Below are positions 2,397-17,835 of a stretch of 64,000 nt of DNA, piece by piece. This stretch comes from Janthinobacterium sp. 61 (lineage in GTDB: Bacteria > Pseudomonadota > Gammaproteobacteria > Burkholderiales > Burkholderiaceae_D): NCBI RefSeq assembly GCF_002846335.1, contig NZ_PJMQ01000001.1, positions 5,890,001 to 5,954,000 of the forward strand, written 5' to 3'. The position numbers were made by a program, and so were the translations under genes. The notes beneath the pieces were generated by a model. The model did not search any database and was not told the DNA's origin. It saw only the letters and a program-made list of their open reading frames with translations. Within the stretch, counting starts at the first letter, position 1; each line of letters begins with the position of its first letter.

Positions 2397-3026
2397 TCAA
2401 GTCCGCATTGATTGCATTGCGTTGAGAAGGTCCATCGGATCAGGTGGGTTAGTTCTAGCAAAGAATTCAGTACCAACAAGAATTGGTTGATATTGAATGT
2501 TGTATCTTGCGTTGAACTCAGCCGCTCTTCCAATTAATATCATGTCATTAAAGTGTTGAGGTGCTTTATAGTGTTTTACCAATCTTGGAGGAAGTGCCGC
2601 ATCAACAATGGTGTCACCACCCAAGGATACCCATGCATGAACATTCTGTGCTCCTTCTAAGCTTTCTGTAGAGAGAACTTCTGCTTGCAAGCTCTCCAAC
2701 GTCACTTCAAATTCGTCAGTGGTATTAATGATGACGTTTCCGAGAATGATGTTGGCTTCAATACCACGGCTATTAAGCATTGCAAAAATATTTGTAGATA
2801 AGGTCTGGCAAGAATTTCCCCAATAGCCAGGAACCGCCATATTCAATATCCCCGACAGACGACCTAGCAACTCAGATGTAGCACGCAAAACATCATCTTG
2901 AATCTGAGCTTCCACAGCAATCAGAGGAGGGCGTGTAAAACCTAACTTCCTTGACTGAAAAAAAGCTTCGGCAAGTTTATCAATGTAGATTTCAGAATAA
3001 TTATCAACCATACTGCCATCTTTCAT
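2397..3026 (-). CDS. Transglutaminase-like (papain-fold) protein in defence operon
   Basis: 209 residues. A candidate catalytic triad is visible in the order typical of transglutaminase-like proteins: Cys73 in GNSCQTLSTNIFAML at the start of a helix, His130 in NVHAWVSL, and Asp142 in TIVDAAL. These folds act as cysteine proteases, amidases, acyltransferases or crosslinkers. The protein has no signal peptide, so it should be cytosolic. It is the last gene of the minus-strand operon, 43 bases after the PIN/NYN gene. No good Shine-Dalgarno is seen before the ATG at 3026; the Met at residue 6 is an alternative start. If it belongs to the defence module it could be an effector or regulator that modifies a protein. 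Family placement rests on the triad pattern only. Confidence 0.6.
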   Translation of the reverse strand: MKDGSMVDNYSEIYIDKLAEAFFQSRKLGFTRPPLIAVEAQIQDDVLRATSELLGRLSGILNMAVPGYWGNSCQTLSTNIFAMLNSRGIEANIILGNVIINTTDEFEVTLESLQAEVLSTESLEGAQNVHAWVSLGGDTIVDAALPPRLVKHYKAPQHFNDMILIGRAAEFNARYNIQYQPILVGTEFFARTNPPDPMDLLNAMQSMRT

Positions 3027-3069
3027 ATTTTAAAAATAAATAGATTTTTTATCGCATCTAATTAAATGT

Positions 3070-3732
3070 CTATGTCGCGTAACGAGCTATGCAGCCCCCA
3101 CACATCCACTCACCGTCATCATAAATCCCCCCAGTCATATCGGTATGCTGGTTGCACCACCCACACTCATGAGAAGCATGAGTATCCTCAGACTTAACTC
3201 GTTTTGGCTCTGTATAGCCCACTTGGTTGGACGGCAACAGCTTCGGATCTGGTGGTGTAGCGAACCTGCCGCAGTTGCTACACCAATGACCACCGTGGTG
3301 CTCAATCGTGCTGGCCTTCTTGCAATGAGGACAGACAACCTGGTCATGCACAACCACCACCACCATATTGGGGCTTACGAGCTCTGCAATGCTCTCCACT
3401 CGCTTGCAAATCATGCCGTTGGTGTTTAGGTGCTTCAGCAGAGGGTCGAATCCTTTGTCGCCACTGAGCACGAAGCACTGGGTATCAGGAGCTGTTTCAA
3501 ACGTCCTACCCAACTCAAAGGCTATGTGGAAGTCCAAGGCATTCTTGCCGCTACCTGATATTTTCAGGAAGTCCACACGGCTGAACCTATGGATCGTTGC
3601 TGGCTTCTTGGCAGCTTTTGGAGGGTTCTGATTGGCGCCGACGAAAATGATGGCCCTGAAGCTCTCATCGAGGAAAGACAAGTCAACCTTTTGCTTGTTC
3701 TCAAGGTCAACCAACAGCAGCTTTTTTGTCAT
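3070..3732 (-). CDS. PIN/NYN-like nuclease with two C-terminal zinc ribbons
   Basis: 220 residues. The N-terminal half has the layout of a PIN/NYN RNase: Asp9 and Glu11 in LLLVDLEN at the end of strand 1, Asp67 in ALDFHIAFELGR, and Asp92/Asp96 in VLSGDKGFDPLLKHL. These acidic residues would bind the metal for RNA cleavage. Two Cys4 ribbons follow: C134-x2-C137...C151-x2-C154, and C190-x2-C193...C211-x2-C214. It starts 8 bases after the helicase stop codon, with an AGGTACTG ribosome site, so it is co-transcribed and probably translationally coupled. In a defence setting an RNase of this type could be the toxic effector. It could also be an independent RNA-processing protein. Confidence 0.7.
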   Translation of the reverse strand: MTKKLLLVDLENKQKVDLSFLDESFRAIIFVGANQNPPKAAKKPATIHRFSRVDFLKISGSGKNALDFHIAFELGRTFETAPDTQCFVLSGDKGFDPLLKHLNTNGMICKRVESIAELVSPNMVVVVVHDQVVCPHCKKASTIEHHGGHWCSNCGRFATPPDPKLLPSNQVGYTEPKRVKSEDTHASHECGWCNQHTDMTGGIYDDGEWMCGGCIARYAT

Positions 3733-3740
3733 TACAGTAC

Positions 3741-5174
3741 CTATCTCGCTGGCAAATGCCTGCTTGTCCCTATAATAGTAAGTGACTTGGAGCCTCGAGT
3801 CATTGCGACATACAAATCTTTAGCATCAAGTGCATCCGCATCCAAAATAACCGCATGATCGTATTCCAAGCCTTTTACCAGCAACGTAGTACCGATTAGC
3901 TTTCTATGGCTAATAGGCCGTCCTGTGTGCCGCATGTCTCGCTGGTAGAGAATTGCAGAATCCGACAAAGTTTTGGCATCGCCGTCAATATGAATTTTCA
4001 AAACACTGAGGAAACGATACAACAGATCACGACGATAGGCAGAGGTTTCTGGATTGTCCTTAAGAGCGAGGAAGAAGGACTTAAGATGGATGATTTGCGG
4101 ATTGTTAAGGTATGCATTTGCTGCCTGCAGGACCAAAGGATATTTGGTGCCCTTGTTTTGATTCGCAACTTCCCCCCGCTTGGTACCAGCAGTCAAAGTA
4201 TCTGCTACTCCAGTGAAGCATTTTTTTGCAAACTCTAATGTTAGCAGAAAGCACTCTTGGTGGTTTTTCGCAGCGTCAAGCTTCTTGAAGAATGCATGAA
4301 GCTCCTTGCCTTCAACCTCTTCAATGGAAGAAAATCGGCCTGCCATAGTTCTGGCCAGAAGATGCGTTTTATTCTTTGACTGCTGATCTCCGCCATGTAG
4401 AGCAATCACACTCTCGTCATGGCCTAACAGGCCGCACAACGATGAATACTGTTTTGAAGAGAGATATTCTGAGTCAGTGTAAACACGCTTCACAGAAGGT
4501 GGAAGACCGTGCAGCAGATCAATTTTCTGGCCTTGCTCCAGAGTCGCCCTGGCCGCCTTCAACCAAGCCCCTAATTCTGGCTGTCTAGCATTTTCCCAAC
4601 GCCAAGGGGTTTCTAACTGCCCTAAACAGTCAAAGTGGGGATAAATACTGACGTCCCAATCAACAGGCTTGCCTCCGTCAAAGTCAAAGATAGCTTGCAT
4701 GGGATCACCCAAGACGCGGCATGGCAGGACCTCGGCTAACGCACACACAAGCGTGTGTTGGAGATCTGAACAGTCTTGGTATTCGTCCACATAGACGCCG
4801 GCATAACTGCATACGATAATGTGACGGATGAACGCCTTGGTAAGCAAACCTGAACAGGATTCATAAAGCTTGTTCCACTGCTTACTTGTTGGGTTGTCCA
4901 CCTTCCAACCTGACCCCTTGGGATAGGCCAAGCACAATCGCAACGACCAGCTTGCTATTGTGTCAACTTGATACAGCGATGCGGGCACCTTCAAAGCCGC
5001 CATCTTGGCCTTGATTGAATTCACACCCGCAAACGTGTGAGTCAGGATGAGCTGCCTTTGTTTGGCAGTTTTGACAGACATGGCAATCAGATGGGTCTTG
5101 CCGTATCCAGCAGGGGCAATTACATATCCCTTGGTAGTGCAGTTGGCAAGCGTGATTGCCAGTTCGTCAGACAT
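3741..5174 (-). CDS. gajB: UvrD/Rep-like helicase, GajB-like subunit of a Gabija-type system
   Basis: 477 residues from the ATG at 5174, close to the usual size of GajB (about 490). Superfamily 1 motifs are visible: Walker A APAGYGKT (20-27), Walker B DEYQD (130-134), motif III GDPMQAIFDF (156-165), and motifs V/VI near the end (LLVKGLEYDHAVILDA, LYVAMTRGSKSLTIIG). The start codon overlaps the end of the upstream nuclease gene by 8 bases (ATGTCTGA), a layout that couples translation. An in-frame ATG at 5201 would add nine residues but lies deeper in the upstream gene. In Gabija, GajB joins GajA and helps it sense or degrade phage DNA. Function here is inferred from motifs and gene order. Confidence 0.75.
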   Translation of the reverse strand: MSDELAITLANCTTKGYVIAPAGYGKTHLIAMSVKTAKQRQLILTHTFAGVNSIKAKMAALKVPASLYQVDTIASWSLRLCLAYPKGSGWKVDNPTSKQWNKLYESCSGLLTKAFIRHIIVCSYAGVYVDEYQDCSDLQHTLVCALAEVLPCRVLGDPMQAIFDFDGGKPVDWDVSIYPHFDCLGQLETPWRWENARQPELGAWLKAARATLEQGQKIDLLHGLPPSVKRVYTDSEYLSSKQYSSLCGLLGHDESVIALHGGDQQSKNKTHLLARTMAGRFSSIEEVEGKELHAFFKKLDAAKNHQECFLLTLEFAKKCFTGVADTLTAGTKRGEVANQNKGTKYPLVLQAANAYLNNPQIIHLKSFFLALKDNPETSAYRRDLLYRFLSVLKIHIDGDAKTLSDSAILYQRDMRHTGRPISHRKLIGTTLLVKGLEYDHAVILDADALDAKDLYVAMTRGSKSLTIIGTSRHLPAR

Positions 5175-6870
5175 TGGATGCCCATTTCCACAGCAGGGCA
5201 AGCTTCAAAGCCGTGTCCTTTTTTGAAAAATCAGGATTTGCGAACGCTGGGCTTACGGTTGAAAACCACTTATCGCCTCGCGTAATATCTTTGAACCAGT
5301 TACAGTCTTTCGCCGCAAGGCCGATGGCTGCTCGTATTTTTGGAGTATCTACCCAAATATCCATGTCTTTATCCAAGTCCTCCTTGAACTTTGAATGAAT
5401 TTGATTATGGGTTGGATAAGCAAGTTCTTGAGCAAGCTTCACACTAGCAAGGACGCTGGCCCACGGCAAATCATTGAAGAGCCGCTGCTCCAACGAAAGC
5501 TTGTCGTCCCAGACATACACAGGCACACCGAGTTTTTCCAATTCAGCTTTGTCGGCAGGAGAAAATTGATCATCTGCATCGGCGTCAGCAAAAACACACG
5601 CTTGGTAGCAGAGGGAGTGGAAGGCTTTCGCCATTGCCTTGACCTTGCTGCCGCCCCCGGCATTGAGAAGGGCGATACCATGATAAGAAAAGGGATCACC
5701 ACCCATCCCCACCTGGTAGTCGTCAAAGCCTCTGAGAAATCCAACTTCGGTGGCACCTTCACAAACGACAACTTTCTTAGCCAAGAACGCTTCAGCGCTT
5801 GAACGAATTTTTCCTTGGACTTCGTGTTCTTTTAAACTGTCGCTTGAGGCAGAAATAATTTTTACAACACCGGCCTTACTATGGACGACATAAAGCTCAC
5901 TTATAGTGAGTTCACGCAGCACTACAGGCGAGTGCGTCGTCAGGAAATATTGACCCCGCTTGTCTTCCCGCACATGTTTGATGAGGCGAGAAATTCGGTG
6001 CGGCTCTAAGCCAAATTCAACCTCATCAAACAGAGTGATATGGCCTTCGTCCAAACCTACTTGTTGAATGCCGCACAGGAGCATACGCCGAGAACCCAAC
6101 CCCAACTGACGCAGTGGGATGTCACCGTCATGCAGCGCCAAGCCGCCCACCTTCAGGTTGATGGAACTCAAATCTAGATGGGCTTGGTAGGAGGTGATGA
6201 CCGGCACGCCCAAGAGTTTGGCAATCTTTTGCGACTTCTCGGCAGCCGCGTCAAAGTTCTTCAGCGTCACCAAGCGGTCGACGTCCAGCGACGTGCGGGC
6301 AGTTCTGGAGGCCGTAGCCAAGAGCTCGTTCAAGCTTTGGGCTTCGGTTAGTTTTGCCAGAGCAGTGCCAGTGGCCCACGATAGCTGTCTCTCACTGTAA
6401 GCACCGATCAGCCCGACACTGACCTTGTTGCGATCTGCCTGCTTAAACGGCACACCTTCAGGAGTCCGATCTGTAAAGATAACCCACTTCGGCTCCAATT
6501 CTTTTCCGACAGTCATGCGAACTGTGAGGACTGCCTCAAGGTGATCATCCTCTTCATCAAAGAGCTCCTGAGTTACCTTATCCCATCCTCGTTGATGATT
6601 GCCATATTTTTGCACTGAGCAGAATTCGGGTATCAAGTCACCAAAGGTCACTTCAATGACAATGCCATCCTCAACCTTGCACTGGTGGAAATCTGCGTCA
6701 GTAAAAGTGGGATTCCATTGAGGGTAGAAGGCATAGCGAATGGCTTCCAATATGGTGGACTTGGAAGAGTCTCCCTTGCCAATCAAGCAGAAAATATCGG
6801 CTTGCGGCAAATTCCATTCAAGTTCTTTAACTCCGCGAAAGTTCTTGATAGTTATTCTTCTGATTTTCAC
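5167..6870 (-). CDS. gajA: OLD-family ATPase/TOPRIM nuclease, GajA-like
   Basis: 567 residues, close to GajA (about 580). The N-terminal half is an ABC-type ATPase: P-loop GKGDSSKST (31-39), signature-like LRQLGLGSRR (253-262), Walker B ITLFDE (278-283) and the His switch TTHSPVV (His313). The C-terminal half is a TOPRIM nuclease domain with Glu371 in VVVCEGATE and the acidic cluster FADADADD (427-434). In Gabija, GajA cuts DNA at specific sites when nucleotide levels drop during phage infection. The P-loop has Ser where Gly is usual (SKST instead of GKST); this GDSSKST form seems a family variant, not an error, since the frame and all other motifs are intact. It is the first gene of the four-gene operon. 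Confidence 0.75.
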   Translation of the reverse strand: MKIRRITIKNFRGVKELEWNLPQADIFCLIGKGDSSKSTILEAIRYAFYPQWNPTFTDADFHQCKVEDGIVIEVTFGDLIPEFCSVQKYGNHQRGWDKVTQELFDEEDDHLEAVLTVRMTVGKELEPKWVIFTDRTPEGVPFKQADRNKVSVGLIGAYSERQLSWATGTALAKLTEAQSLNELLATASRTARTSLDVDRLVTLKNFDAAAEKSQKIAKLLGVPVITSYQAHLDLSSINLKVGGLALHDGDIPLRQLGLGSRRMLLCGIQQVGLDEGHITLFDEVEFGLEPHRISRLIKHVREDKRGQYFLTTHSPVVLRELTISELYVVHSKAGVVKIISASSDSLKEHEVQGKIRSSAEAFLAKKVVVCEGATEVGFLRGFDDYQVGMGGDPFSYHGIALLNAGGGSKVKAMAKAFHSLCYQACVFADADADDQFSPADKAELEKLGVPVYVWDDKLSLEQRLFNDLPWASVLASVKLAQELAYPTHNQIHSKFKEDLDKDMDIWVDTPKIRAAIGLAAKDCNWFKDITRGDKWFSTVSPAFANPDFSKKDTALKLALLWKWASNV

Positions 6871-7120: not shown

Positions 7121-8278
7121 TTAGCTCTCATTTGCCCAAAGCTTCGCTCCGATGTCACTATGCCTCAATGTGGCATATCGTTTCAAGGTGCTCAACTCAA
7201 TATGTCCAGAAATTTTGCTAATTTCAATATCAGTAAGATTTGTATTGACAAAATACCAACTTACAGCGCAGTGTCTCAGATCATGAATTTTGAAGTTGGT
7301 GACTTTTCCATTTTTGCAAATCACCTTGAATCTGCCAGAAAGGACGGAGCTACTAGCCCAATAATTCCCAAAGACCAAAGATTGGCCTGGCTTCTTCAAC
7401 TTCATGAGCCGGTCTTTAATGAAGTGGTAAAACTCTGGTCTAAGTGGAACCTTCCTATCTTCTGCATTCTTCTTGTCAGCGATTTTAGTATTTTCTTTTG
7501 GAACGAAGATGTATGAATGGCTTGGGTCTTTACCATTTAAGTGAATTTCATCCCACCTAAGAAGAAGGCTTTCTCCAGCACGCATACACGAATAGTATTG
7601 CCACAGAAGAAGACACTTCCATTCTTCTTGCTTGACATACATTTTATCTGTTGCATCCAACAATCTATCCAACTCACCAGCTTCCAGAATCCTGTCGCGT
7701 GGAATCCATGCTTTAGGTGGGGAATTCTCATCAAAAGGCTTACGGTCAAATGTATAGTCATGATGCTTGGCATGCCACATCAATGATGTCTTGATGGCGT
7801 AATAGAGCTTTCTGATAGTGCTTTCGCTGTATGTTTTTTGCACCAACTGACCAGTCTTCTCATCTACCACTTTACGGCCATCGTACAGAGGATGAGACTT
7901 CTTTTTAGTTGCTTGATCTGGAACCTTCTGTTCCAGCTTGGTCTTAAGATAAAGTGCGAAAGTGCCTGCCTTGAAGTTGCCAAGTGGCACACTTCCAATC
8001 TCAAGTTTGAGCTTTTGAAGGTCATAACGTTTGCCATCTGCGACAGTGTTATGCTTTAGATACTCAGTGAAAATCTGAGCTAAGGTGAGCTTTTTGATTT
8101 TGGTGATGTCGACGGACTCACCACGGTCAATCTTGGACTTGACGTCACGAATGAATTTTTCAGCTTCTTTTTTGGTTTTGCAAGTCTTGCTAACAGCAAC
8201 GCCAGCTTCGCGCACTCGCACCAAGAACGAGACATCCCCATTCACACCAACTCGTTCAGTGATCAACTTACCTGCCAT
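7121..8278 (-). CDS. int: Tyrosine recombinase (phage-type integrase) of the element
   Basis: 385 residues. The N-terminal arm-binding and SAM-like core-binding parts are followed by the catalytic domain. Catalytic motifs are visible: Arg in CMRAGESLLLRWDEI, HDLRHCAVSW (His-x-x-Arg), GHIELSTLKRYATL with the second His and the Tyr nucleophile. I chose ATG 8278 because AGGAGAGGCTAGG precedes it; a longer start at 8332 would run through the repeat cluster at 8301-8330. It catalyses site-specific integration and excision at the tRNA-Arg site next to it, and reads inward from that end as usual for such elements. Confidence 0.9.
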   Translation of the reverse strand: MAGKLITERVGVNGDVSFLVRVREAGVAVSKTCKTKKEAEKFIRDVKSKIDRGESVDITKIKKLTLAQIFTEYLKHNTVADGKRYDLQKLKLEIGSVPLGNFKAGTFALYLKTKLEQKVPDQATKKKSHPLYDGRKVVDEKTGQLVQKTYSESTIRKLYYAIKTSLMWHAKHHDYTFDRKPFDENSPPKAWIPRDRILEAGELDRLLDATDKMYVKQEEWKCLLLWQYYSCMRAGESLLLRWDEIHLNGKDPSHSYIFVPKENTKIADKKNAEDRKVPLRPEFYHFIKDRLMKLKKPGQSLVFGNYWASSSVLSGRFKVICKNGKVTNFKIHDLRHCAVSWYFVNTNLTDIEISKISGHIELSTLKRYATLRHSDIGAKLWANES

Positions 8279-8300
8279 CCTAGCCTCTCCTATGTACGGT

Positions 8301-8330
8301 CCAAGTTGGAACTTGGAACAAATTTGGAAC
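8301..8330. repeat. Palindrome and TTGGAAC iterons upstream of int
   Basis: TTGGAAC occurs three times (8306-8312, 8313-8319, 8324-8330), and CCAAGTT-GG-AACTTGG (8301-8316) is a perfect palindrome that overlaps the first two copies. The block lies between the integrase start and the attachment site, where arm-type sites or binding sites of an excisionase or repressor are expected. Confidence 0.6.
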
Positions 8331-8405
8331 ATTTTGGCTAGAATAGCGTACCTACCTCATATAAGTATATGTAATTAAAGAGATTTTTTTGCTTATTAGT
8401 GTTCC

Positions 8406-11391: not shown

Positions 11392-12630
11392 ATGTTGAAT
11401 TCCTTGCGTAAAAAAGCCGTTGCCGTTGCCATCTCGGCAAGCCCATGCCTGCACGGCGCAATCTTTCTGGCCAGCACCTTTGCCAGTGGCGCCGCGCTGG
11501 CCGATATCAGCGACACTATCAAGCCTTTCGTTGCCGCGACGTACTCGTACGATGACAACCTGATGCGCTTGCCGGATGTGGTGCCGGGTTTTTCCGGCCC
11601 CCGCTCGGACACGTCGAAGATGCTGCAGGCGGGCTTCCTGTTCAACCGTCCCATCGGCCGCCAGATACTGACGGGCCAGGCCAAGTGGTCGAAGGTGAGC
11701 TTCAACCGCTTCAGCCAGTTCGACTACGATGGCAAGGATTACCTGGCCGACCTGGAGTGGCACATCGCCAACCACCTCGAAGGCCATGTGGGCGCCAGTT
11801 ATTCGCAGAGCCTGACGCCGTTCAACGATTTTCAGAGCACTTTGCGCAATTTGCGCACGGAGCGCCAAGAATACCTGAATGGCGCCTGGCGCTTCCACCC
11901 CAGCTGGCGCGTGCGCGGCGGCCTGTCGCGCAACCGTTATTCGTACGACTTGCCCTCGCAGGCTTTTTCCAACTGGACGGAAGACGCGACGGAATTTGGC
12001 GTCGACTACCTGGCGCCCAGCAATAGCCGCATCGGCCTGCAGTTACGTCACTTGAACGGCAACTATCCGAACCGCAATGCGTTCGATACCAGCATTTACG
12101 GTAATGGCTATACCCAGGACGAGATCAAGGCAAACGTGTATTGGGAGCTCAGCGGCATCACGCAGATGGAGTTTCTGGGCGGCTGGGTGCGCCACCGTAA
12201 CAGCTTGCTGTCCGGGCACGATGCCAGCGGCACGAATGGCCGGCTGAGCGTGTACTGGAAGCCTTTGGGCAAGGTCAATTTCACGGGCGTCGTCTGGCGC
12301 GAATTTGGTTCGGTCGACAATTCGCTGGTAACGAGCAGCCTGAACACTGGCGCCAGCGTGGGCACCACGTGGGCGGCCACGTCGAAGGTGAGCGTCGATG
12401 CGCAGCTGCGCCAGGAACGGCGCGATTTCTCTGCCGTCAGCGGCCTGGTGCTGCCTGGTGACGGCCGCGACACCACCCGTACCGCCTCGCTTGGCGCCAC
12501 GTATGCGCCACATCCGAAAGTCCAGCTTGGCGTACGCCTGTTCCACGAGCGGCGCGATGGCGTCGCCATCGTCGATAGCGGCGGCTATCGTGCCAAGGGT
12601 ATTTCCTTCAATGGCAGCGTACAGTTTTAA
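11392..12630 (+). CDS. epsL: EpsL, outer-membrane beta-barrel of the eps system
   Basis: 412 residues from ATG 11392, with a signal peptide ending near ASGAALA. The mature part is rich in alternating aromatic/polar strands and ends in SFNGSVQF, a C-terminal Phe typical of outer-membrane barrels. It matches the EpsL family of XrtB/PEP-CTERM polysaccharide loci (TIGR03014-type), thought to assist passage or anchoring of the polymer at the outer membrane. It is followed 8 bases later by epsB. Confidence 0.85.
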   Translation: MLNSLRKKAVAVAISASPCLHGAIFLASTFASGAALADISDTIKPFVAATYSYDDNLMRLPDVVPGFSGPRSDTSKMLQAGFLFNRPIGRQILTGQAKWSKVSFNRFSQFDYDGKDYLADLEWHIANHLEGHVGASYSQSLTPFNDFQSTLRNLRTERQEYLNGAWRFHPSWRVRGGLSRNRYSYDLPSQAFSNWTEDATEFGVDYLAPSNSRIGLQLRHLNGNYPNRNAFDTSIYGNGYTQDEIKANVYWELSGITQMEFLGGWVRHRNSLLSGHDASGTNGRLSVYWKPLGKVNFTGVVWREFGSVDNSLVTSSLNTGASVGTTWAATSKVSVDAQLRQERRDFSAVSGLVLPGDGRDTTRTASLGATYAPHPKVQLGVRLFHERRDGVAIVDSGGYRAKGISFNGSVQF

Positions 12631-16425: not shown

Positions 16426-17835
16426 ATGAATTTCCACCAGTTTTTGCTCGTCTTGTTTGTCCGCAAACGAATCTTGCTATTCACTTTGCTCATCACAGTC
16501 GGGGCGACGGTGGTGGTGAGCCTCATGCTGCCCAAGACCTATAAGGGTACGGCGTCCGTGTTGATCAGCTACAAGGGCGTCGATCCAGTGACCGGACTGG
16601 CATTGCCTATGCAGTTGTTGCCGGGCTATATGTCGACGCAAATCGACATTATCAGCAGCAAGAACGTGGCGCTGAAGGTCGTCGATCAGCTGCGGCTGGC
16701 GGAAAGTCCCGCCGTCATTGCCCAGTTCAATGAGGTGACTGAAGGCCAGGGCACCGTGCGCGACTGGCTGGCGGATCTGTTGCTGTCCAAGCTGGAAATC
16801 GTGCCGTCGCGCGAAAGCAGCGTGGTCGATATCAGCTTCAAGGGCAACGACCCGCAGTTTGTCGCGGCCATCGCCAATGCTTTTGCTGATGAGTACCAAA
16901 AAACCAGTACTCAGCTGAAAGTCGATCCATTGAAAAAGGTGGCCGTGTATTTCAATGAGCAAACGAAACTGTTGCGTGACAGCCTGGAAGCGGCGCAAAG
17001 CCGCTTGTCGAAGTACCAGCAAGAGCACGGTATTGTCAGCGTGGATAACCGCCTCGACGTGGAATCGAACCGCTTGAACGATCTATCCGCTCAATTGGTC
17101 GCCGCGCAAGGCCTGTCGATGGAGGCGTCGTCGCGCCAGCGCATGGCCGAAGGCAATGCGGGCTCTGAGTCGCCCGATGTGGCGTCGAACCCGCTGGTCC
17201 AGAACTTGAAGCTGAGCCTGGCAACGTCTGAATCGAGGCTTGCCGAGATGGGGCAGCGACTGGGACGCAATCATCCTCAATACGAAAGCCTGCGCGCCGA
17301 GGTCGAACGCATGCGCAGCGAACTGGCTGACAGCACGCGCGTGACGTCAAATTCGGTCAGCAAGAACGCCGGCATCATGCAGCAGCGCGAAGGCTCGGTG
17401 CGCGCCGCGTTGACGGCACAAAAAAACAAGGTGCTTGAGTTGAACCGTACCCGTGACGAAATGGGCGTGATGCAAAAAGATGTGGAAAGCGCCCAACGCG
17501 CCTTCGATATCGCTTCGCAGCGCTTCTCGCAGACCAGTATCGAGGGCAAGTCTGAACAATCCGATATATTCCTGCTCAACCCTGCCGTTGCACCGATCAA
17601 GCCTGCTGGCCCAAAGGTCATGTTGAATACGCTGCTGGCCCTGTTCCTGGGCGGCTTGCTCGGTGTGGGCTTTTCCTTGCTGGCGGAAATGCTGGACCGC
17701 CGCGTGCGTTCGGAAGCTGACCTGAGCGAATTGTTGCAATTGCCTGTGCTCGGTTCGATCGACTGGAGTGCGCCGACACGTCCGCGCCTGAACCGATTTA
17801 AATCGTTGTTGCCGCGCAGTTTGCGTTTTAATTAA
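16426..17835 (+). CDS. epsF: EpsF, Wzz-type chain-length determinant
   Basis: 469 residues. Two membrane segments flank a large periplasmic coiled-coil region: the first at about 15-37 and the second at about 405-430 (TLLALFLGGLLGVGFSLLAE), before a basic cytosolic tail. Wzz/GNVR features are present, including a Pro-rich approach to the second segment (AVAPIKPAGPKVMLN). It controls polymer length and bridges inner-membrane synthesis to EpsE. It has its own start 60 bases after epsE and is followed by epsG at 22 bases. Confidence 0.92.
   Translation: MNFHQFLLVLFVRKRILLFTLLITVGATVVVSLMLPKTYKGTASVLISYKGVDPVTGLALPMQLLPGYMSTQIDIISSKNVALKVVDQLRLAESPAVIAQFNEVTEGQGTVRDWLADLLLSKLEIVPSRESSVVDISFKGNDPQFVAAIANAFADEYQKTSTQLKVDPLKKVAVYFNEQTKLLRDSLEAAQSRLSKYQQEHGIVSVDNRLDVESNRLNDLSAQLVAAQGLSMEASSRQRMAEGNAGSESPDVASNPLVQNLKLSLATSESRLAEMGQRLGRNHPQYESLRAEVERMRSELADSTRVTSNSVSKNAGIMQQREGSVRAALTAQKNKVLELNRTRDEMGVMQKDVESAQRAFDIASQRFSQTSIEGKSEQSDIFLLNPAVAPIKPAGPKVMLNTLLALFLGGLLGVGFSLLAEMLDRRVRSEADLSELLQLPVLGSIDWSAPTRPRLNRFKSLLPRSLRFN

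Follow-up and report, generated by a model that had tools for sequence, protein, structure and literature searches.

A Gabija-like gene pair with a separately mobile, predicted PIN-type RNase gene on an integrative element of Janthinobacterium sp. 61

Do four closely spaced genes on a mobile element form one dedicated defence system, or were they brought together locally? This question is raised by a locus at positions 2397-6870 of a 64,000-nucleotide stretch of the Janthinobacterium sp. 61 genome (GCF_002846335.1, contig NZ_PJMQ01000001.1, positions 5,890,001-5,954,000 of the forward strand), which is called the window below. The locus consists of four open reading frames (ORFs), all on the minus strand:

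5167-6870, minus strand: GajA-like protein, OLD-type ATPase with TOPRIM nuclease, 567 amino acids, GTG start (PADLOC and Pfam)
3741-5174, minus strand: GajB-like protein, UvrD-family superfamily 1 helicase, 477 amino acids counted from the ATG (PADLOC and Pfam UvrD-helicase)
3070-3732, minus strand: predicted RNase of the PIN7/NYN type (PIN), 220 amino acids, zinc-ribbon-like CxxC pairs at the C-terminus, a mobile single-ORF cassette
2397-3026, minus strand: transglutaminase/papain-like cysteine enzyme (TGL), 204-209 amino acids, Cys73-His130-Asp142 (or Asp138)

The preliminary description of this DNA had noted how tightly these genes are packed, and the sequence agrees with it. The GajA gene ends with AATGTCTGA and overlaps the GajB gene, which has its ATG at 5174, by 8 bases. 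PIN starts at 3732, 8 bases past the end of GajB at 3741, and TGL starts at 3026, 43 bases past the end of PIN at 3070. In the ORF list GajB starts with a TTG at 5201, nine codons upstream of the ATG, and the entry for TGL from this genome in the protein collection (P0001) has 204 amino acids, which would place its start at 3011. Promoter and terminator scans gave results no better than shuffles. The same description had suggested that a fixed order of the four genes would mean an extended Gabija system. By our analysis, the four genes were brought together locally and are not a fixed new system. Probably, a two-gene Gabija-like pair is the primary system, carried as cargo beside the integrase of the element, PIN is a promiscuous plug-in that plausibly acts as a backup effector, and TGL belongs to a PIN-TGL arrangement of the element family.

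The first two genes were identified as Gabija-like by full-length PADLOC matches. The GajA family PDLC04168 matched residues 1-565 of the GajA-like protein with an E-value of 1.4e-202, and the GajB family PDLC04173 matched residues 19-484 of the GajB-like protein with an E-value of 1.6e-168. Pfam detected AAA_15 (5e-18), AAA_21 and OLD-like_TOPRIM (1.2e-8) in GajA. As in known Gabija, an OLD/ABC-type ATPase with a C-terminal TOPRIM domain is directly followed by a UvrD-like helicase. In contrast to known Gabija, extra genes stand downstream, the pair resembles the solved GajA and GajB chains in the PDB only weakly in sequence (best E-values 1.2e-6 and 7.5e-5, respectively), and a glycine of the P-loop is replaced. 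The Walker A motif reads GKGDSSKST (region of residues 29-39) with Ser in place of Gly; in the alignment this position holds Ser, Thr or Ala in all six members of the clade and Gly in all seven outgroups. The use of ATP by GajA of this clade may differ. What we take to be the Walker B motif, the TOPRIM residue Glu371 and the DxD motif (429/431) are all present. Judged by sequence, GajA and GajB are an ordinary two-gene Gabija-like pair that has diverged from the solved Gabija proteins.

The third gene had been described as a zinc-ribbon PIN/NYN nuclease; a PIN/NYN gene with zinc-ribbon-like cysteine pairs is supported. The protein matched PF18475 with an E-value of 6.2e-20. Among 38 aligned sequences the acidic residues D9, D67, D92 and D96 are invariant, as are six of the eight cysteines arranged in CxxC pairs, with the other two nearly so. 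The PIN fold and the conserved acidic residues by which PIN7/NYN RNases are recognized are both present, and the folds of the MARF1 NYN domain, Rae1 (YacP) and VPA0982 are among the nearest known relatives. The match of the PIN model to an NYN fold came from a second structure comparison (VIA); Foldseek with the models of PIN and TGL returned nothing at an E-value of 0.001 or below, and the profiles of both proteins found no sequence in the PDB. Phage records contained one distant match to PIN and none to TGL. In the protein collection 758 relatives of PIN were counted; an entry named Delftia lacustris is among them (P0122), as one is among the TGL relatives (P0019). PIN is addressed here as a predicted RNA-cutting enzyme.

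The partners of PIN were examined in other genomes. A scan of one genome each for 84,980 species yielded 135 stretches that encode a relative, and the best 80 of these 135 were kept. Partners were counted in 22 loci, namely the first 20 (L020-L039, at least 57% identity), the window, and a second copy from the same Janthinobacterium genome (L117). The other 60 of the 80 (L040-L099) and nine loci numbered L010-L018, whose matches mainly cover the PIN domain, were excluded from the count. A defence-type gene adjoins PIN or lies one gene off in 13 of the 22 loci, and one further locus holds a remnant of Gabija. GajB stands upstream of PIN in the window (8 nucleotides) and in L021 (4 nucleotides), and the frameshifted tail of a GajB gene lies beside PIN in L020. 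Thus, PIN was mostly found apart from Gabija and adjoins it in three of the 22 loci, if the remnant is included.

Type I restriction genes or the GIY-YIG gene associated with them, which corresponds to PDC-S14 of PADLOC, are found near PIN in four of the 22 loci. L033 and L034 have HsdM, HsdS and GIY-YIG genes upstream of PIN with an overlap of 8 nucleotides. The same operon in L036 has one extra gene before PIN, and HsdR follows 12 nucleotides later. L031 contains the GIY-YIG gene, overlapping PIN by 8 nucleotides, and the two downstream genes, with no HsdM, HsdS or HsdR. The operons of L033, L034 and L036 are related type I restriction-modification operons that differ in the genes between hsdS and hsdR: either GIY-YIG, PIN, a 548-amino-acid protein and a PLD protein, or GIY-YIG, a 166-amino-acid protein and PIN. 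A GHKL ATPase gene (HATPase_c_3) is the neighbour in another four loci, with a 4-nucleotide overlap in L025 and L029 and with a gene for 248-250 amino acids in between in L023 and L037. This partner is a candidate defence protein, to judge from its domain and from weak PADLOC matches to restriction enzymes (E-values of about 1e-11 to 4e-6). Downstream of PIN we found a PLD-domain protein, that is, a PLD nuclease, in L024 (start 16 nucleotides past PIN by count), DzbA in L039 (83 nucleotides by the longest ORF) and an AbiJ/Abi_C protein in L117 (18 nucleotides). The start of PIN lies 4-8 nucleotides past the end of the upstream gene, or overlaps it by 4-8 nucleotides, in ten loci. What is left of the claim of a fixed four-gene unit is weaker: a predicted PIN RNase gene is recurrently and tightly coupled to varied defence genes.

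The second PIN copy (L117:6982-10049, about C1:320981-324048 of the genome) is 92% identical to the window PIN at the amino acid level. Together with the AbiJ/Abi_C gene it stands right after a rarA/mgsA gene, and about 3 kb beyond the two lies an ORF that we take to encode a seryl-tRNA synthetase-like protein. No match to the integrase of the window was detected in the 20 kb around this copy.

The borders of the shared DNA were determined for 15 of the 22 loci from comparisons of the PIN gene and as much as 2.5 kb of either flank. Between loci without a common partner, similarity starts no more than 12 nucleotides before the start of PIN and ends no more than 6 nucleotides past its stop. The two copies of Janthinobacterium sp. 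61 are 88% identical across the ORF, and their flanks are unlike on both sides. The window and L021 have GajA, GajB and PIN in common and nothing past the stop of PIN; the window and L022 share PIN and TGL and nothing before the start of PIN, the window integrase lying outside the compared stretch. Recombination inside PIN as the event that joined GajAB-PIN to PIN-TGL was considered and rejected, since sliding identity revealed no chimera and the window PIN is nearest to L117 along nearly its whole length. Apparently, the PIN gene is a promiscuous, separately mobile add-on.

Several observations weigh against a role of PIN in combination with its neighbours. Eight of the 22 loci have no adjoining recognized defence gene: L022 and L026 have an integrase there, the GHKL gene of L035 lies more than 1 kb upstream, and L027, L028, L030, L032 and L038 show no recognized partner. 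Five of the 22 copies appear to be broken or truncated. L020 and L035 have early stops, the frame of L038 is broken, the L037 copy comprises no more than residues 1-162, and in L039 nothing ahead of residue 41 matches; this is in line with a dispensable gene. Seven of 27 PIN-adjacent genes matched PADLOC at 1e-10 (one GajB, three PDC-S14, and one each of REase_I, DzbA and REase_II). A set of 40 genes farther from PIN in these loci matched 69 PADLOC families with one member each, and the matches to 25 of these families, DpdF, PD-Lambda-1, PsyrT and methyltransferases among others, represent at least four distinct genes by name. As a test for enrichment of defence genes beside PIN this comparison is weak, and PIN loci are islands anyway. 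In addition, the structure model of PIN is of moderate confidence (pLDDT 69.6, pTM 0.50), and both its RNase activity and a phage phenotype are predictions.

Such observations would also fit a PIN that acts on its own, as a selfish gene or a solitary defence gene, is expressed by inserting behind any transcribed operon and has no functional tie to its partners. The exact-ORF boundaries, the eight loci with an integrase or no adjoining recognized defence gene and the damaged copies all fit this explanation. However, the partners that can be recognized are mostly nuclease- or ATPase-type defence genes, in 13 loci and one remnant, and the coupling to the upstream gene is tight in ten. We regard an independent PIN as possible, if on the unlikely side, and prefer a plug-in with a function beside its partners. 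In this view GajA and GajB would act like the known Gabija proteins, sensing and cutting phage DNA. The PIN gene, added behind gajB, would be near enough for co-translation, and the protein would be made from the same message. With its acidic site and its zinc-ribbon-like tail the protein would bind RNA and cleave it. Its most plausible role is that of a backup (abortive) effector in case the primary system is blocked, and this role could also be played next to type I restriction-modification, GHKL ATPase, Abi and other genes. A more far-reaching proposal makes the PIN/NYN zinc-ribbon RNase a universal guard that travels as an exact single-ORF cassette, docks to mechanistically unrelated defence operons and is unleashed when the primary system is engaged or disabled. 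This proposal seems to us rather doubtful; if it were true, a single RNase would read out sensors as different as Gabija, type I restriction-modification, GHKL ATPase, Abi and DzbA.

Close relatives of the Gabija-like pair were inspected for the two extra genes. GajA homologues were collected at an E-value threshold of 1e-40 from a sample of 294 genomes of the family, and a second sample comprised 399 genomes of the order. Besides Janthinobacterium sp. 61, 13 genomes of the family sample carry GajA. The four close relatives with at least 50% identity (50-73%; G1016, G917, G904 and G903, loci L141-L144) were fetched. GajB adjoins GajA in all four, the GajA frame of G903 being broken, and neither PIN nor TGL is encoded in the 18-20 kb around any of these pairs. 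Nine other genomes of the order sample carry GajA at 35-40% identity, and PIN and TGL are likewise missing from all nine stretches (7-16 kb). The closest plasmid copy of GajA, on J. lividum p356839 (L110), is 83% identical and has no PIN; an IS3-family transposase interrupts gajB of this plasmid (L110:7700-9353), the closest relative of the pair. Single-sequence scans of viral contigs found no close relative of GajA, TGL or PIN. In the GajA tree the window and L021, both with PIN, form one group with the J. lividum plasmid copy (support 89/97) beside relatives without PIN. PIN thus looks like a late addition behind GajAB; the interrupted plasmid copy is uninformative on an earlier PIN.

The fourth gene had been read as a transglutaminase-like, Cys-His-Asp protein. 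The residues held up: Cys73, His130, Asp138 and Asp142 are invariant in all 60 aligned sequences, and from the spacing we read Asp142 as the third member of the triad. The family assignment did not reach the threshold. PF13471 (Transglut_core3) matched with an E-value of 0.0014 and 19 bits, below the cut-off of 26; by this score TGL differs from its nearest known group, the transglutaminase-like superfamily (Transglut_core3, arylamine NAT, and C-terminal domains of the SseI/PMT type). One relative, P0112, has a precomputed PF13471 assignment. The AlphaFold model has a pLDDT of 90.2, and its fold matches are weak. TGL is a putative cysteine enzyme that may be a protease, a transglutaminase or a deamidase. 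Matches to TGL were found in 134 proteins of the protein collection and in none of the 293 other family genomes or the 398 other order genomes. TGL stands beside Gabija in one of four contexts (window, L022, L111 and L113), and two plasmids carry it without GajAB or PIN.

One of these contexts is a sister element in Acidovorax sp. SUPP3334 (L022), with an integrase 75%, a PIN 85%, a TGL 72% and a relaxase relative 61% identical to those of Janthinobacterium. There, the integrase gene overlaps PIN. The genes for TGL, for a protein of 292 amino acids and for a Peptidase_C14 protein of the caspase fold come next, and the relaxase relative lies beyond; GajAB was not found in the 12 kb examined. 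As this element carries PIN-TGL without GajAB, TGL goes with PIN in the element family and is not a Gabija component. TGL, the 292-amino-acid protein and the caspase-fold protein stand in a row (L022:2287-4556), and none of the three matches PADLOC; the row is a candidate protease-based defence operon.

An extended Gabija, in which all four genes form one dedicated system and GajAB depends on PIN and TGL or is regulated by them, is improbable after these comparisons. It draws on the tight spacing and on the GajB-PIN junction, which recurs in L021 and of which L020 has a remnant. Against it, all four close GajAB relatives lack both genes, L021 has PIN without TGL and L022 has PIN-TGL without GajAB, and TGL is absent from like-drawn samples in which GajA occurs in 13 and nine other genomes. 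According to the accessible part of the paper of the PADLOC authors (PMC8565338), genes are added to a system if they co-occur with it more often than they are orphans; PIN and TGL were not found with GajAB more often than without it. Highly improbable is a regulator, that is, a PIN RNase that processes the mRNA of its own operon and holds a toxic nuclease low until infection: PIN is tightly coupled to the upstream gene in several operons, but close GajAB relatives do without it and loci with different partners have no visible common sequence outside its ORF.

The location on a mobile element, in turn, was well founded. The element comprises about 40 kb (C1:5858363-5898404) with the four-gene locus at its right end, and the window holds these further parts of it and its border:

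7121-8332, minus strand: tyrosine recombinase (integrase), Pfam Phage_integrase E-value 1.2e-15, with the 75% identical integrase in L022
8405-8449, plus strand: right attachment site with the core CCTCCTAAG, the final 45 nucleotides of the tRNA-Arg(CCT) gene of the host, starting in the anticodon loop
1-751, plus strand: 3' part of a weakly supported MobA-like relaxase, 444 amino acids, starting outside the window at L115:17417

The first 39 nucleotides of the host tRNA-Arg(CCT) gene are found at 5858324-5858362 and its last 45 at 5898405-5898449. The halves share the 9-nucleotide core CCTCCTAAG, so that insertion cuts the anticodon loop. An intact tRNA-Arg(CCT) gene occupies the site in all four relatives of the same genus that were fetched (L152-L155); an integrase, attachment sites and an empty site in relatives identify an integrative element. 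By eye, the integrase gene of L022 adjoins the 3' portion of a gene that resembles tRNA-Arg(CCT) and contains this core. A tRNA-Arg at 5858555 was rejected as the direct-repeat partner of the right end because of its opposite orientation, and the borders came from the empty site of the relatives. The rejected copy is a complete tRNA-Arg(CCT) gene of the element itself (C1:5858555-5858629, minus strand; L116:6555-6629). Apart from the halves it is the sole match in the genome with more than 30 nucleotides and more than 80% identity. The split host gene is not restored, and the element seems to supply the replacement. The GC content of the integrase and the four genes is 42-51% vs about 60% for two flanking host genes.

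The relaxase candidate matched an MbeA-like NCBIfam model with an E-value of 5e-5 and 22.5 bits vs a cut-off of 500, and its relative in L022 is just under the Pfam Relaxase cut-off. We read a small protein left of the locus as MobC-like. Four proteins of the element consist of repeated units of the WY-NG-HREDGPA type (L115:8208-9557, 11619-12191 and 16983-17420), one of them between the MobC-like gene and the relaxase. A 611-amino-acid ORF (L115:12473-14308) is GHKL-ATPase-like by eye and has no PADLOC match; nothing in the ORFs from the PIN loci matched it at an E-value of 1e-3 or below. At 787-1431 the window encodes a 214-amino-acid protein with an internal repeat, whose two copies are 79% alike over 56 amino acids.

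RNases encoded in or beside defence operons have been described before. PIN, HEPN and Schlafen endoRNases in BREX operons were proposed as backup suicidal effectors, and the pairing of OLD-ABC ATPases with PIN RNases is mentioned, in the accessible part of the same article (PMC12839542). The window PIN shares this position with the BREX RNases. It differs as one PIN7 subfamily with a CxxC-rich tail that recurs, with exact ORF borders, next to Gabija, type I restriction-modification, GHKL, Abi or DzbA genes; no recognized neighbour in the 22 loci, which were scanned in part, is a BREX gene. Embedding between hsdS and hsdR is known for the DarTG2 genes of enteropathogenic Escherichia coli (PMC12255303, accessible part), as is seen for PIN in L033, L034 and L036. 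In contrast to DarTG2, PIN consists of one gene and is found outside restriction-modification operons as well. No published title or abstract on a Gabija-PIN-transglutaminase operon or on this PIN subfamily across partners was found in a search that lay outside bioRxiv and most subscription papers. As far as the accessible parts of these sources go, backup PIN RNases are already known from BREX operons, and the range of partners of the CxxC-tailed subfamily may be the newer part.

Tight operon spacing alone is no proof of a new multi-gene defence system, and the point of interest is the choice of partners by the PIN cassette rather than the set of four genes. Matched natural pairs exist, namely GajAB with and without PIN and related type I restriction-modification operons that embed different genes, and they make the contribution of an added gene measurable. 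If PIN works with several partners, it would be a test case from nature for the way in which a second layer is added to defence operons, with one effector and many primary systems.

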